Source of the DNA: a virus
IMG/VR virus record: IMGVR_UViG_3300046690_000486
Coordinates: 1-29,118 of that record
Length of the DNA: 29,118 bases
Strand: one strand, 5' to 3'
Part shown: one piece after another, positions 11,291 through 21,791 of the stretch
Position numbering within the stretch: the first letter of the stretch is position 1
Layout: every line of letters begins with the position of its first letter
The notes under the pieces: model-generated
Databases searched by the model: none
The model's input: the letters and a program-made list of their open reading frames with translations, nothing else
What the model was told of the DNA's origin: nothing
Position numbers and translations under genes: made by a program

Positions 11291-11920
11291 TTACAGTTTG
11301 TTGAGGGCCTGACTGACGGAGCCAACATAAATCTGGGACTGGGATATGTGCTCGGTGGTCATGTCCACCACAGTGGCAGCCTCCGGGCTGAGTTGAGTCA
11401 GGACAGAGAGCGCTTCACGCATGGCTTCGTCGAAGGCCCGGTGAGCGTGCAGCAGCTTTTTGCGCGCAGCGGCTGGAACCGGGATAGCCTCACTGACGGC
11501 GGGTTCGGCGACCGGCGATATTACGCCGATAGCCAGTAGGTGGTTCTCGATAGCATCAATGAGTTGTCGGCATTGAGACCCTTCGACCATGTCGGAGTTT
11601 GCTTGGGACAGAGAAAAATTCACGTCGCTGTCGAGGATGGCGCGCGTGCGTTTGCGGTAAGGCCAGAAACGCACCAGGCACACATCGGCGAAGCGCGCCG
11701 CGGAATACCCGTTCTCAGTAATGCCGAGGATGTATTGCTTCCCGCCCAGGCTCAGCTTCACGAACCACTTGCAGTTCTGCGTGGCGTAGTATGCGTTGCG
11801 CAGCGTGCTAGCCTTGCGTTTGTCCAGATACACCTGGTCGTTGTGCCCGGCGTCCCACTGGGTCAGGGCATCCAGTCGGTTCGCCATTGCGTTGAGTTTC
11901 GGGTCATTCGGTATTTGCAT
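11291..11920 (-). CDS. AP2-like DNA-binding protein (209 aa), first gene of the leftward arm
   Basis: Residues about 48-110 fit an AP2-type three-stranded sheet plus helix: 'KWFVKLSLGGKQYILGITEN' (51-70) then 'GYSAARFADVCLVRFWPYR' (71-89). In phages this fold is usually attached to HNH endonucleases or acts as a small DNA-binding regulator; no HNH residues are present. The C-terminal half is helical, with 'RKKLLHAHRAFDEAMREAL'. Being first after the divergent control region, it could be a regulator, by inference. I use ATG 11920, which sits 16 bases downstream of a CACTGT box; the longest frame starts upstream at 11962 inside the promoter. Confidence 0.65.
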   Translation of the reverse strand: MQIPNDPKLNAMANRLDALTQWDAGHNDQVYLDKRKASTLRNAYYATQNCKWFVKLSLGGKQYILGITENGYSAARFADVCLVRFWPYRKRTRAILDSDVNFSLSQANSDMVEGSQCRQLIDAIENHLLAIGVISPVAEPAVSEAIPVPAAARKKLLHAHRAFDEAMREALSVLTQLSPEAATVVDMTTEHISQSQIYVGSVSQALNKL

Positions 11921-11930
11921 ATCCAAGAAC

Positions 11931-11959
11931 ACAGTGCGGCAAGTGGACAGAATAAGCAA
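11931..11959 (-). promoter_or_regulatory. Leftward promoter, TTGCTT-N17-CACTGT
   Basis: On the minus strand TTGCTT (11959-11954), 17 nt, CACTGT (11936-11931), GTTCTTGGAT, then ATG at 11920. Same hexamers and spacing as the rightward promoter at 12276-12304. With the CACTGT box at the -10 position, transcription would begin within a few bases of the ATG. Confidence 0.6.
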
Positions 11960-11979
11960 CATTAAAGTGGAGATTATTT

Positions 11980-12012
11980 CTAGTTCTAGGATAAGGGTGT
12001 ATTAGGGTAGTC
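11980..12012 (+). repeat. Left arm of perfect 33-bp inverted repeat
   Basis: This 33-base segment (starting CTAGTTCTAGG, ending AGGGTAGTC) is the exact reverse complement of 12189-12221. It lies upstream of the leftward promoter, 20 bases from its -35 box. No target-site duplication flanks the pair. Confidence 0.9.
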
Positions 12013-12188
12013 GATGCCAAATCGGCATGGCTGAATACCTAAACCTGTTTGGACTAGAGTATACCTAATATGTGGGCTGCAAGCCCTGTTTTGGGGACCC
12101 CTATGGTCTGGTATATAATAAAATATTTTTCGCGTATTCTATTCTAACTTTTTCCAGTCTAGGTTTTGGGCTGTGCCGATTTTGAGGT
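12013..12188. other. AT-rich core of the divergent control region; origin/regulatory candidate
   Basis: No gene. It holds short hairpins ATGCC-N5-GGCAT (12014-12028), GGGCT-GCA-AGCCC (12074-12086) and GGGGACCCC near 12093. A run of AT-rich sequence spans about 12110-12160, with TATAAT at 12114-12119 preceded at 17 bp by TTGGGG (weak rightward promoter). Enclosed by the 33-bp inverted repeat and flanked by divergent promoters, it could be a replication origin, a shared regulator site or an invertible segment; the sequence alone does not decide. Confidence 0.4.
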
Positions 12189-12221
12189 GACTACCCTAAT
12201 ACACCCTTATCCTAGAACTAG
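12189..12221 (-). repeat. Right arm of perfect 33-bp inverted repeat
   Basis: Exact reverse complement of 11980-12012. It lies 54 bases upstream of the -35 box of the rightward promoter. The two arms enclose 176 bp. Confidence 0.9.
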
Positions 12222-12275: not shown

Positions 12276-12304
12276 TTGCGTATGCCCCCGGCTCCGCGCA
12301 CTGT
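12276..12304 (+). promoter_or_regulatory. Rightward promoter, TTGCGT-N17-CACTGT
   Basis: TTGCGT (12276-12281), 17 nt, CACTGT (12299-12304), then TTTTTGAAC and ATG at 12314. It mirrors the leftward promoter across the divergent region and would make a nearly leaderless mRNA for the first rightward gene. Confidence 0.6.
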
Positions 12305-12313
12305 TTTTTGAAC

Positions 12314-12481
12314 ATGCCGACGACCCCCGACGACCATCTGTTTAAACACCAACCCAAGCAGGTGCGCATCCTCAACGAGCAGGCGCGCCGCGAGAAGAGG
12401 GCGCAGGAGCGATACTCGTGGGCTACCCAAAACCCCACCAACCCAAAAGTTGCAGGCAAGCGATTGACGAAGCCCGTATGA
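12314..12481 (+). CDS. Hypothetical basic protein, 55 aa
   Basis: ATG at 12314, 15 bases after the CACTGT box. A helical, Lys/Arg-rich protein (FKHQPKQVRILNEQARREKR, then AQERYSWATQNPTNPK). It is the first gene of the rightward arm; its charge suggests nucleic-acid binding, but no family is recognised. The longer frame from 12230 lies across the promoter and is rejected. ATGA overlap with the next gene. Confidence 0.6.
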   Translation: MPTTPDDHLFKHQPKQVRILNEQARREKRAQERYSWATQNPTNPKVAGKRLTKPV

Positions 12482-12774
12482 CCCCCGAAGAACTGTCCGA
12501 AATGTTTGAGCGCCACGAGAACGAGGCCCATCACTTTGACCGGGTGTCGCACCCCACGTCGAAACGCGCGGACTTGCACGCATTTATGCTGCTCGACAAA
12601 CTGGTGCCCGAGGCTGGTTTGGATATGGTGAGTGCCGCGGAGCACGATGAAATCTGGCTCGATGTTGATGTTGAAAAATTGGCCGAGGTAATCCAGGAGT
12701 GCCAGGTGATTGAGTTGCGGCGCTGTGGCATTCGGTATTGCTCGGAGTTCGATTGCCTTGGAATGTTTGTATGA
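12478..12774 (+). CDS. Hypothetical acidic protein, 98 aa
   Basis: 'MTPEELSEMFERHENEAHHFD' followed by an acidic helical body ('DEIWLDVDVEKLAEVIQECQVIEL') and a Cys-containing end ('RRCGIRYCSEFDCLGMFV'). Not recognised. The start is set by ATGA with the 55-aa gene; the end overlaps the next start as ATGA. Confidence 0.65.
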   Translation: MTPEELSEMFERHENEAHHFDRVSHPTSKRADLHAFMLLDKLVPEAGLDMVSAAEHDEIWLDVDVEKLAEVIQECQVIELRRCGIRYCSEFDCLGMFV

Positions 12775-13424
12775 CCCACGACATAATCCCCCCGGACCTG
12801 GACCGCGAGCAAGCGTTCCTGCTTTACGCAACGTTCACCGGCGACATCGTCCGAACGGCGCACGCACTTAATGTCCCAGAGGCAGCGGTGCTAAAAATGG
12901 CCGACGACGAAGGCTGGCAGAACAAACTCGGACCAATCCTGGCGCTGAAGAAGTCCACGCGCCCAGGCGATGTAGAGCGCGCGTGCAATCGCGCCCTTAA
13001 CTTCGTCCAGGCCCATAAGATGCGGCTGTTCGTTCAACGCGTGCTGCACCGCGTGTCCAGCATGAACGATGGCGAACTGGAGGAATACATTTTTCAATCC
13101 ACGGCGAGCAAGAACGGCGACACGTCGAAGAAGATGACAACCCGCGCTGTCGCTGACCTGGCTGTGGCAATGGAGAAAGCTCAGTCACTCACGTATCAGG
13201 CGCTCAACGACTCCGCACCCGAGAGAGCCAAGCGAAAAGAGAACGACGGAGACAGTGAAGTGAGCGCCGGTGATTTACACGCACAAATCAGCGCTGGCCT
13301 TGCAGCCGTTCGCGCATCAGCTACGCCCAGGGCTCAGTTGTTTGATGCTCAGCTTGCGCAGGCCAATGAGATAGCGAAGGAAGCAGTGAAACCCAAATCC
13401 CCGAACGACGATGACGACCACTGA
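12771..13424 (+). CDS. Probable small terminase subunit (helix-turn-helix), 217 aa
   Basis: Residues 20-50 ('ATFTGDIVRTAHALNVPEAAVLKMADDEGW') form the helix-turn-helix typical of phage small terminase subunits, where 'G-D-I-x-x-T-A-x-x-L-x-V' recruits packaging DNA. A long helical middle (e.g. RALNFVQAHKMRLFVQRVLH, AVADLAVAMEKAQSLTYQAL) fits the oligomerisation region, and the C-terminus is acidic (PNDDDDH) as in many small terminases. It lies about 9 kb from TerL, which is farther than usual. It could instead be another HTH regulator; the family call is by pattern only. Confidence 0.6.
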   Translation: MTHDIIPPDLDREQAFLLYATFTGDIVRTAHALNVPEAAVLKMADDEGWQNKLGPILALKKSTRPGDVERACNRALNFVQAHKMRLFVQRVLHRVSSMNDGELEEYIFQSTASKNGDTSKKMTTRAVADLAVAMEKAQSLTYQALNDSAPERAKRKENDGDSEVSAGDLHAQISAGLAAVRASATPRAQLFDAQLAQANEIAKEAVKPKSPNDDDDH

Positions 13425-14480: not shown

Positions 14481-14506
14481 TGGGACAAGTTGTCCCATCT
14501 TTTGTT
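14481..14506 (+). terminator. Probable intrinsic terminator after the early rightward genes
   Basis: TGGGAC-AAGTT-GTCCCA (14481-14497) followed by a T-rich run (TCTTTTGTTT). The stem is 6 bp of mixed sequence with a 5-nt loop. It sits 17 bases after the last stop codon and just upstream of the operator pair. Confidence 0.5.
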
Positions 14507-14587
14507 TCTCAATCTTGAGAACCTATTAGCCCCAATAGCGCATACCAATAGCGGATATGGAGCGTAATAGGTTCTCAATAATGAGAA
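14506..14587. promoter_or_regulatory. Pair of 16-bp palindromic operator candidates
   Basis: Site 1 at 14506-14521 (TTCTCAATCTTGAGAA) and site 2 at 14572-14587 (TTCTCAATAATGAGAA) share the half-site TTCTCA/TGAGAA and have centres 66 bp apart. The wider segments 14505-14528 and 14565-14588 form an imperfect 24-bp inverted repeat (2 mismatches). Direct repeats of CAATAGCG lie between them. This is the layout of a dimer binding two operators with a looped intervening DNA. Confidence 0.55.
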
Positions 14588-14625
14588 AGCAGTGTAAGCG
14601 AAACCGACGGACATCCCGAGGACGT

Positions 14626-18476: not shown

Positions 18477-19241
18477 ATGCTACGAAACCCAGGACCAACA
18501 GGACCAACAGGACCCACGGGAGGCACCGGCGCATCAGGTCCGACCGGACCAACCGGGCCTACCGGGGGCACCGGCGCTTCTGGAGCAGCCGGACCTACTG
18601 GTCCTACAGGACCGACTGGCGGAACCGGAGCATCGGGTCCTACCGGTCCGACCGGGCCAACCGGAGGAACTGGGGCAGCCGGTCCCACTGGACCGACTGG
18701 ACCCACCGGACCCACCGGACCGACTGGCGCTGCCGGTCCTACCCTGGCTAACGCTAACGTCACTGACGTAACCGCGAACGCCACCGACACGTATCTGACC
18801 AACTCCGACCTGGCTATCTCCGGGCACGTCAAAATCGGCACCACCGTCCGGTGGCGCATCACGGCCACGAAGACCGCTACCGGAGTGGCAGGTCCAATCT
18901 TTTCAATGCGGTTTGGAACCGGCGCTACGGTTACGGATGTTAGTCGGTGCTCGTTCACGGGCGTTGCGCAAACCGCGGCAACCGACACCGGGTGTTGGGA
19001 TGTGGAGGGCATCGTCCGGGCGACTGGCGCAAGCACCGTCGTCCAGGGCTCCGTCATAGCGAACCACCGTAACGGGTCCTCCGGTTTTCAAAATGTGCCC
19101 ACGGCCCAGGTGCTGCAATCCCTTTCCACCGGCTTCGATGTAACTCCCGCCAGCACCAAGGTAGGGCTATCTGTTAATCCAGGTGCCGCCGGAGTCTGGA
19201 CTTTCCAATCAATTTCTTCGGAGGCAATCAACATAACCTGA
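18477..19241 (+). CDS. Collagen-like fibre protein (GPT repeats), 254 aa
   Basis: Residues 6-89 are 28 uninterrupted Gly-X-Y triplets, mostly GPT, GGT, GAS and GAA, a bacterial/phage collagen-like stalk. A beta-rich C-terminal domain (about 90-254) follows, containing '[25 protein letters not shown]', likely the trimerising head. In the family, collagen-like triplets assemble into triple-helical tail or head fibres. Thr in the Y position of GPT could be O-glycosylated; a glycosyltransferase gene starts 2 bases after the stop. Confidence 0.85.
18492..18743 (+). repeat. Collagen-like tandem repeat, 28 triplets
   Basis: A 9-base periodic coding repeat (GGA CCN ACN), with a higher-order block of [15 protein letters not shown] (45 bases) recurring four times, with small variants. 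Codon choice varies between copies (GGA/GGT/GGC, ACA/ACT/ACC), so it is an old repeat under protein-level selection rather than a recent expansion. Confidence 0.9.
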
Positions 19242-20344: not shown

Positions 20345-21073
20345 ATGAATGTAGTGAGTTATCTACGAGTAAGCGGCGCGACCCAAATCGCGGGCGACGG
20401 CTTCGACCGACAGGACAGGGTTATTGAGGACTTCTGCCGAATCCACAAGCTCACCAACCACCGAGAGTTTCGGGAGGAAGGCGTTTCTGGAACCGTGGAG
20501 GGCATCGACCGACCGATGTTTTCGGCTGCCCTGGAGATAGTATCCTGGAGCAAGCAGAACGGCGGGGAACCCCTCGAAGCAATCGTCGTCGAGCGGATGG
20601 ACCGACTCGCGCGCGACCTGATGGTCTCCGAACTACTCCTGAAAGAGTGTCGGACCCGAGGCATCAAAGTTTTCAGCGCCGACCAGGGCAACCTGACGGA
20701 CATGGCAGCCGACGGCGGTGACCCCACGCGCGTGCTCATTCGACAAATCATGGGCGCGCTGGCGGAATGGGAGAAGTCCGTCCTGGTGCGCAAACTGCGC
20801 AGCGCCAAGGACCGGCTCAAGGCCGCGGGCAAGATGAACGTGGAAGGCGTTAAACCTTACGGTTTTTTCAAGCCCGAGGCGGCATTGCTCAAACTCATGC
20901 TGGACTGGCATAATGGAGAACCGGGCAGGGACGACGACCACGCCGACCACCCCAAAAACTACCGCGAAATAGCGCGGCTGCTGAACATCATGGACTCCCG
21001 CACGCGGTCCGGCAAGCACTGGACCGAGCAAAACGTGCGCACAATTATTTTGAACGCAAAACGAAAACAATAG
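20345..21073 (+). CDS. Serine recombinase (resolvase/invertase family), short form
   Basis: A 242-residue site-specific recombinase. Catalytic Ser is S10 in 'YLRVS'; the 'ERMDRLARD' motif (83-91) and 'GALAEWEKSVLVRKLRSAK' (137-155) complete the active-site domain. Residues about 165-242 resemble the start of the Recombinase domain (KMNVEGVKPYGFF..., YREIARLLN..., HWTEQNVRTIILN). There is no Cys-rich zinc ribbon or long C-terminal coiled coil, so it is much shorter than large serine integrases. I use ATG 20345; a TTG start at 20312 is in frame. It could act in integration, resolution of multimers or DNA inversion. Confidence 0.8.
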   Translation: MNVVSYLRVSGATQIAGDGFDRQDRVIEDFCRIHKLTNHREFREEGVSGTVEGIDRPMFSAALEIVSWSKQNGGEPLEAIVVERMDRLARDLMVSELLLKECRTRGIKVFSADQGNLTDMAADGGDPTRVLIRQIMGALAEWEKSVLVRKLRSAKDRLKAAGKMNVEGVKPYGFFKPEAALLKLMLDWHNGEPGRDDDHADHPKNYREIARLLNIMDSRTRSGKHWTEQNVRTIILNAKRKQ

Positions 21074-21716: not shown

Positions 21717-21791
21717 TGCGGGGTAGAGCAACGGTAGCTCGTCACGCTCATAACGTGAAAATAGCGGGTTCGACTCCCGCCCCCGCTACCA
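21717..21791 (+). tRNA. tRNA-Met (CAT), initiator-like
   Basis: Acceptor TGCGGGG (21717-21723) with CCCCGCT (21781-21787): six pairs and a T1-T72 mismatch. A mismatch at 1-72 is the hallmark of bacterial initiator tRNA. D-arm GAGC-AACGGTA-GCTC, anticodon arm TCACG-CTCATAA-CGTGA with anticodon CAT at 21749-21751, T-arm GCGGG-TTCGACT-CCCGC, discriminator A and encoded CCA (21789-21791). The three consecutive G-C pairs expected in an initiator anticodon stem are absent, so it is initiator-like in acceptor and D-arm but not in the anticodon stem. Confidence 0.85.

Follow-up and report, generated by a model that had tools for sequence, protein, structure and literature searches.

A long inverted repeat at the divergent gene junction of an uncultivated phage group: a candidate paired regulatory element beside an AP2-like protein gene

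Introduction

In the immunity region of lambdoid phages, the divergent promoters pL and pR are accompanied by the sites oL and oR and by the regulator gene cI. Divergent genes also frame the herpesvirus origins oriL and oriS, in which inverted initiator boxes surround an AT-rich center. A third kind of paired arrangement is known from the serine invertase switches of the Hin and Gin type, which combine inverted repeats, carrying dyad sites, with a serine recombinase. Proteins of the AP2 type, on the other side, are known mostly from plants and apicomplexans, where they are transcription factors. In phage HK022, each of the two divergent arms has its own copy of a cis element, the put site, and the two copies act as structured RNA (PMC9378689).

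Here we describe a locus that recalls each of these systems and is identical to none of them. It lies in a stretch of viral DNA of 29,118 nucleotides (IMG/VR record IMGVR_UViG_3300046690_000486), which we call the window. The locus resembles the lambdoid immunity region in its divergent promoters, its paired sites and the fast-diverging candidate regulator gene next to them, and also in the fact that sites and putative regulator change together between otherwise similar phages. It is unlike that region in having two long, non-palindromic arms of a single inverted repeat (IR) around a short AT-rich core, and in a candidate protein that is AP2-like; no tyrosine integrase was found in the genomes tested, and a temperate life is no more than a possibility here. 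With oriL and oriS the locus shares inverted sites, an AT-rich core and divergent promoters on the outside, whereas no homologous protein is present and the arm sequence varies by lineage; the likeness is one of geometry. No description of this element, or of the junction in this phage group, was found in the literature searched, which was mostly non-subscription.

The repeat and its genomic setting

The window covers part of a phage for which there is also a record of 74,478 bp (G001). The ends of this record overlap by 146 bp (140/146 identical), and the genome thus closes to a circle of approximately 74.3 kb. Its genes are arranged in two arms. Leftward genes encode a helicase-like protein, a family-A DNA polymerase, an exonuclease, a SprT-like protein and a sigma-70 region 4 protein, several of these names being family matches only, and the rightward genes run through the structural region. 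The features of the window that are discussed below are as follows.

11291-11920, minus strand: first leftward gene, predicted AP2-like domain and coiled coil, candidate arm binder; start codon uncertain, with an upstream ATG at 11962
11931-11959, minus strand: promoter-like site reading leftward, TTGCTT-N17-CACTGT, at 20 bp from the outer end of the left arm
11980-12012, plus strand: left arm, perfect 33-bp part (exact match)
12013-12044, plus strand: imperfect inward extension of the left arm
12045-12156, no strand: AT-rich core (62% AT)
12157-12188, minus strand: imperfect inward extension of the right arm
12189-12221, minus strand: right arm, perfect 33-bp part, inverted (exact match)
12276-12304, plus strand: promoter-like site reading rightward, TTGCGT-N17-CACTGT, at 54 bp from the outer end of the right arm and 10 nt before the ATG at 12314
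12314-12481, plus strand: first rightward gene, a basic protein of 55 aa; first or second rightward gene in most relatives
12771-13424, plus strand: conserved rightward gene, the anchor of the searches for relatives; weakly small-terminase-like, by the layout of its predicted helices only
20345-21073, plus strand: serine recombinase (PF00239) by family match, putative as to any action on the repeat

A preliminary description, made from the letters of the window, had reported a perfect 33-bp inverted repeat with 176 bp between its halves, too long to be due to chance, around an AT-rich core at the only divergent junction, with one promoter of the same family at 20 and 54 bp outside the two arms. 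All of these observations hold. The two 33-bp parts are exact reverse complements, and the repeat is larger than first noted: the similarity runs inward to cover 11980-12044 and 12157-12221, which makes an imperfect IR of 65 nt per arm, 83% complementary, around a core of 112 nt. Its score of 37.5 compares with a maximum of 11 in 40 dinucleotide shuffles, and it is the strongest IR in the whole of G001, where no third copy of the arm was found (the next best place has 18/33 matches). The core is 62% AT, against about 42% across this 58% GC genome, and the two-arm genome has one divergence only. At the repeat of the window no tandem repeats were found; the arms fold as RNA no better than shuffles (mean z +0.2), and the best dyads inside them are no better than those of shuffles (mean p 0.72). 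The one exact match to the arm outside this phage, in the locus L005, was rejected as chance, because it falls within the coding sequence of a portal-like gene in an AT-rich phage that is not related.

Both promoters of the junction have weak -35 boxes (TTGCTT and TTGCGT), and further members of this family precede other genes of the genome (TTGACA-N17-CACTGT and TTGGCG-N17-CACTAT). Many of the related loci described below likewise have sites of the form TTGACA-N17-[CG]ACT[ACG]T beyond the outer end of one arm or of each. Such promoter-like sites at the junctions usually end 8-14 nt before the start codon, and a sigma-70 region 4 protein is encoded in 14/14 genomes. Since the promoters sit outside the arms, the arms lie upstream of the recognised transcripts and not within them.

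Several other observations were made along the genome. The protein encoded at 12314-12481 belongs to a family of basic proteins of approximately 50-60 aa with the pattern 'LF...(A)P..V..L...A+KE.R', which corresponds to no known family. Between rightward genes, at 14505-14588, there is a hairpin-like inverted repeat of 33 nt (82%), which is partly extended in G001 (score 19) and is close to the point where that record begins and ends. A collagen-like GPTGPTG array occupies 18477-18750 in a gene of the structural region, and similar arrays occur elsewhere in the genome. The Rfam search of the window returned tRNA only, away from the repeat, and a tRNA-Met (CAT) gene is located at 21717-21791. 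Outside the window, at 49417-57300 of the rotated G001, the far end of the late arm encodes a protein of 2627 aa with a weak match to an ADP-ribosyltransferase 'polyvalent' protein.

Recurrence of the layout in related phages

No cultured relative was found, and both nucleotide and protein searches of a phage collection came back empty. Relatives were gathered using the conserved protein of 12771-13424 as anchor, which gave 31 viral loci and one MAG contig, the latter being the only match among genome contigs. We compared 25 loci, counting near-identical records once except for the trio L069-L071. A strong IR is present at the same junction in 19/25 loci, each of them above all 40 of its shuffles; the arms measure 16-107 nt and the gaps 11-136 bp, and the core is AT-rich in every lineage (53-82%). 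The IR of the junction ranks as the strongest in 9 of the 14 complete-size genomes and second in a tenth, and in a control of 70.6 kb downstream of the anchor gene one IR only had a score of 15 or more.

Five or six of the 25 loci are without a clear IR. No convincing one was seen at the junction in L049, L060, L062 and L069, and L038 and L070 have a weak gapped IR only; in L062 the junction is almost completely filled by extra leftward genes. The preliminary description had proposed that the repeat should persist in close relatives that keep the divergent layout, and this expectation is borne out in most loci and fails in the minority just named. Its suggestion to compare cores and arms among related phages was similarly answered in two ways: the layout recurs in most of them, but from one lineage to another the arms have, for the most part, unrelated sequences. 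The nearest lineages have motifs of 12-13 nt in common in their arms, with the same outward direction, namely CCGCCAAGGTGC in the pair L041/L042 and CTACCTACCGAG in the pair L036/L057. The IR of L057 contains an indel, and its arms are built of two identical blocks, 16 and 13 nt long, with an unrelated spacer between them; this is the pattern that binding sites would show. A different organization is seen in L067, where three tandem 27-bp, iteron-like copies of the arm stand on one side and inverted copies on the other, and where a gene of repeated modules of about 35 aa replaces the AP2-like gene beside the repeat. The junction of this locus is dense in repeats (L067:3400-4000), including a 77-bp unit that is present twice and has a 30-nt near-palindrome.

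The AP2-like neighbour protein

The product of the first leftward gene is predicted by AlphaFold (pLDDT 85.5) to form a three-stranded antiparallel sheet packed against a helix, followed by long helices. In this model the strands are at residues 43-46, 51-58 and 61-68, and the helix is at 71-88. AP2 domains take ranks 1-6 in Foldseek (7et4, prob 0.99) and ranks 1-4 in VIA, at moderate Z values of 6.2 to 4.6 (among those listed, 7wq5 with Z 6.2 and 1gcc with Z 5.1); lambda integrase is a weaker structural match, through its arm-binding domain, which is AP2-like, and coiled coils are what the long helices match. The Pfam AP2 model matched neither the window protein nor appeared among the families listed for 19 relatives, and a PDB sequence search with a profile of the AP2-like protein brought up coiled-coil noise only. 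Membership of the AP2 DNA-binding domains is thus predicted at the level of the fold and lacking at the level of the Pfam sequence model, and for this reason we use the name AP2-like only. Among viral proteins that carry a name, the best matches are AP2/ERF and HNH-AP2 proteins (those of Raoultella phage Ro1 and Xanthomonas phage Xp10, for example), which are alike in bringing an AP2-like DNA-binding fold into a phage genome. Unlike them, the protein described here has no recognised HNH nuclease, is predicted to be fused to a coiled coil, and has a fixed place beside an IR.

The gene adjoins the junction in the great majority of loci and is present somewhere in 13/13 complete-size records. The association is not strict in either direction, as L038, L062, L069 and L070 have a clear AP2-like neighbour despite no clear IR, and L067 has an IR with no AP2-like gene beside it.

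Concerted divergence of protein and repeat

Comparison of close relatives indicates that the AP2-like gene and the IR diverge together and much faster than their neighbours. For L041 compared with L042, identity is 38% in the AP2-like protein but 71% in its left neighbour, 76% in its right neighbour, 87% in the TerS-like anchor protein and 84% in the recombinase, and the arms have 12 nt in common only. The trio L069/L070/L071 provides an even closer comparison. Their DNA is about 98-99% identical over several kilobases rightward, and the proteins right of the locus are 97-100% identical, whereas the DNA identity of the AP2-like genes drops to 70-84%; between L069 and L070 the AP2-like protein is 66% identical and the IR region cannot be aligned. 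Within the trio, the beta-sheet segment has the most amino-acid (non-synonymous) change or nearly the most, and over all lineages variable columns of the sheet alternate with conserved ones. Synonymous change (dS) in the AP2-like gene of the trio is high as well, and therefore allele replacement is as possible as positive selection. Among all lineage pairs, no correlation was found between arm similarity and AP2-like identity. Its absence is expected if arms and protein are both saturated, and we do not count it as support.

Interpretation of the repeat

We give about even credence to the reading that the repeat is a two-sided cis-regulatory element, consisting of paired cognate sites of the AP2-like protein that would coordinate both divergent promoters. 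Among the roles named in the preliminary description, symmetric regulator sites controlling both arms is the one best supported by the recurring layout and the co-diverging neighbour; that the AP2-like protein binds the arms, in which direction it regulates, and whether it has any role in immunity or competition is what we infer. The evidence read directly from the sequences comprises the layout with its outside promoters, the unique position and its recurrence, the predicted fold of the neighbour, and the concerted divergence, and it presents what a lambda-type regulator-operator pair has, namely putative paired sites at divergent promoters beside a candidate regulator gene. According to this model, a long, non-palindromic region that binds protein would be present in two inverted copies, one on each side of the AT-rich core, just upstream of the two promoters that head both gene arms, the leftward arm with replication and early-type genes and the rightward arm with structural genes. 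The AP2-like coiled-coil protein would be the most likely cognate, binding both arms, perhaps bridging them via its coiled coil, and setting the activity of both promoters including its own. Protein and sites would co-diversify rapidly between phages, like the repressor-operator pairs of immunity regions. The IR-less loci that have the AP2-like gene and the IR of L067 that lacks it count against this reading, and so do arms of up to 107 nt, which are longer than one regulator site needs. Also weighing against it are the missing correlation of arm similarity with AP2-like identity, the high dS, which would fit allele replacement, and an AP2 assignment made at fold level.

The main rival, less probable though plausible, is a replication origin, another of the roles named at the outset. 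Each arm would be an initiator site, the two in inverted orientation on either side of an AT-rich core that unwinds between the divergent promoters, and the initiator would be the AP2-like or another replication protein; such an origin may coexist with a regulatory role. An AT-rich core in every lineage, a repeat at the single divergence point of the genome and the iteron-like tandem and inverted copies of L067 speak for it, but no initiator family was recognised and initiator-origin pairs have no obvious need to change faster than every neighbour. Cumulative GC skew, which had been suggested as a check, reaches an extremum at the junction, or close to it, in the majority of genomes; its partner, however, is found in most relatives at the point of gene convergence (0.58-0.68 of the genome) and not at the antipode, and the sign is reversed in the genome of the window, where the coding strand is C-rich and not G-rich as in most relatives. 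The skew follows the direction of the genes, an effect that transcription would have, and so does not count as independent evidence of an origin. A replication terminus at the antipode of the repeat, taken from a first GC-skew pass, was dropped for the same cause, as thirteen relatives follow gene direction.

The remaining readings are all improbable to different degrees. The arms may have no site function, being an inverted duplication that recombination or template switching regenerates repeatedly at a hypervariable junction; this would explain why they are unrelated between lineages and concerted within each, yet it sits poorly with the same position and spacing range in 19/25 loci, the block-wise conservation in L057, the motifs common to near lineages and the near absence of such repeats from the control, and we regard it as quite unlikely. 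Very unlikely is that the repeat consists of crossover sites, at which the small serine recombinase (242 aa, with one homologue per genome in 15/15 genomes tested) would invert or homogenise the core. The preliminary description had offered an invertible segment as one role, and like the Hin and Gin switches this genome has inverted repeats together with a serine recombinase; near-identical arms with fast turnover would also fit homogenising recombination. Unlike those switches, the arms have no dyad sites, there is no switchable gene between them, and the core had a single orientation wherever it was compared, across five assemblies of one relative that are 99% identical and across the two records of this phage, which leaves the invertible segment unsupported. 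Moreover, inversion of the core would switch nothing obvious because the promoters are outside the arms, and the recombinase does not co-vary with the arms, as the comparison of L041 with L042 makes clear. A packaging (pac) recognition region is suggested by the small-terminase-like layout of the gene at 12771-13424, which is next to the repeat in the loci found. It is more unlikely still, as the structural match to small terminases is weak (G20c TerS is among the weak matches) and the TerS-like protein is conserved where the arms are not. Least probable of all are paired RNA leaders of the put or nut kind, in which both divergent transcripts would carry arm sequence. The presence of a cis element in two copies, so that each divergent arm has its own, does recall HK022 (PMC9378689), and an arm would read the same each way if transcription began in the core; but unlike put the arms are unstructured and upstream of the recognised promoters, which end shortly before the start codons.

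Implications

Returning to the paired regulatory sites, an element whose position and architecture are kept while its arm sequence is almost wholly changed, together with a changing gene of DNA-binding type, has the footprint of a rapidly turning-over specificity pair. We further propose, as a doubtful extension, that the junction may be a hypervariable specificity locus, in which the AP2-like protein and its own long inverted sites would form a one-gene identity system. Specificity would be exchanged or re-evolved even between phages that are 98-99% identical nearby, and would decide compatibility in co-infection, whether as superinfection immunity or as origin incompatibility. The lineages compared here make up a natural panel, with about 19 candidate pairs of protein and site, for studying how DNA specificity shifts among AP2-like proteins. 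For the widespread and uncultivated group of phages of approximately 67-75 kb, the junction offers a first candidate for a main control point or an origin, with the appearance of a rapidly diversifying lock-and-key control point, or of a replication start.
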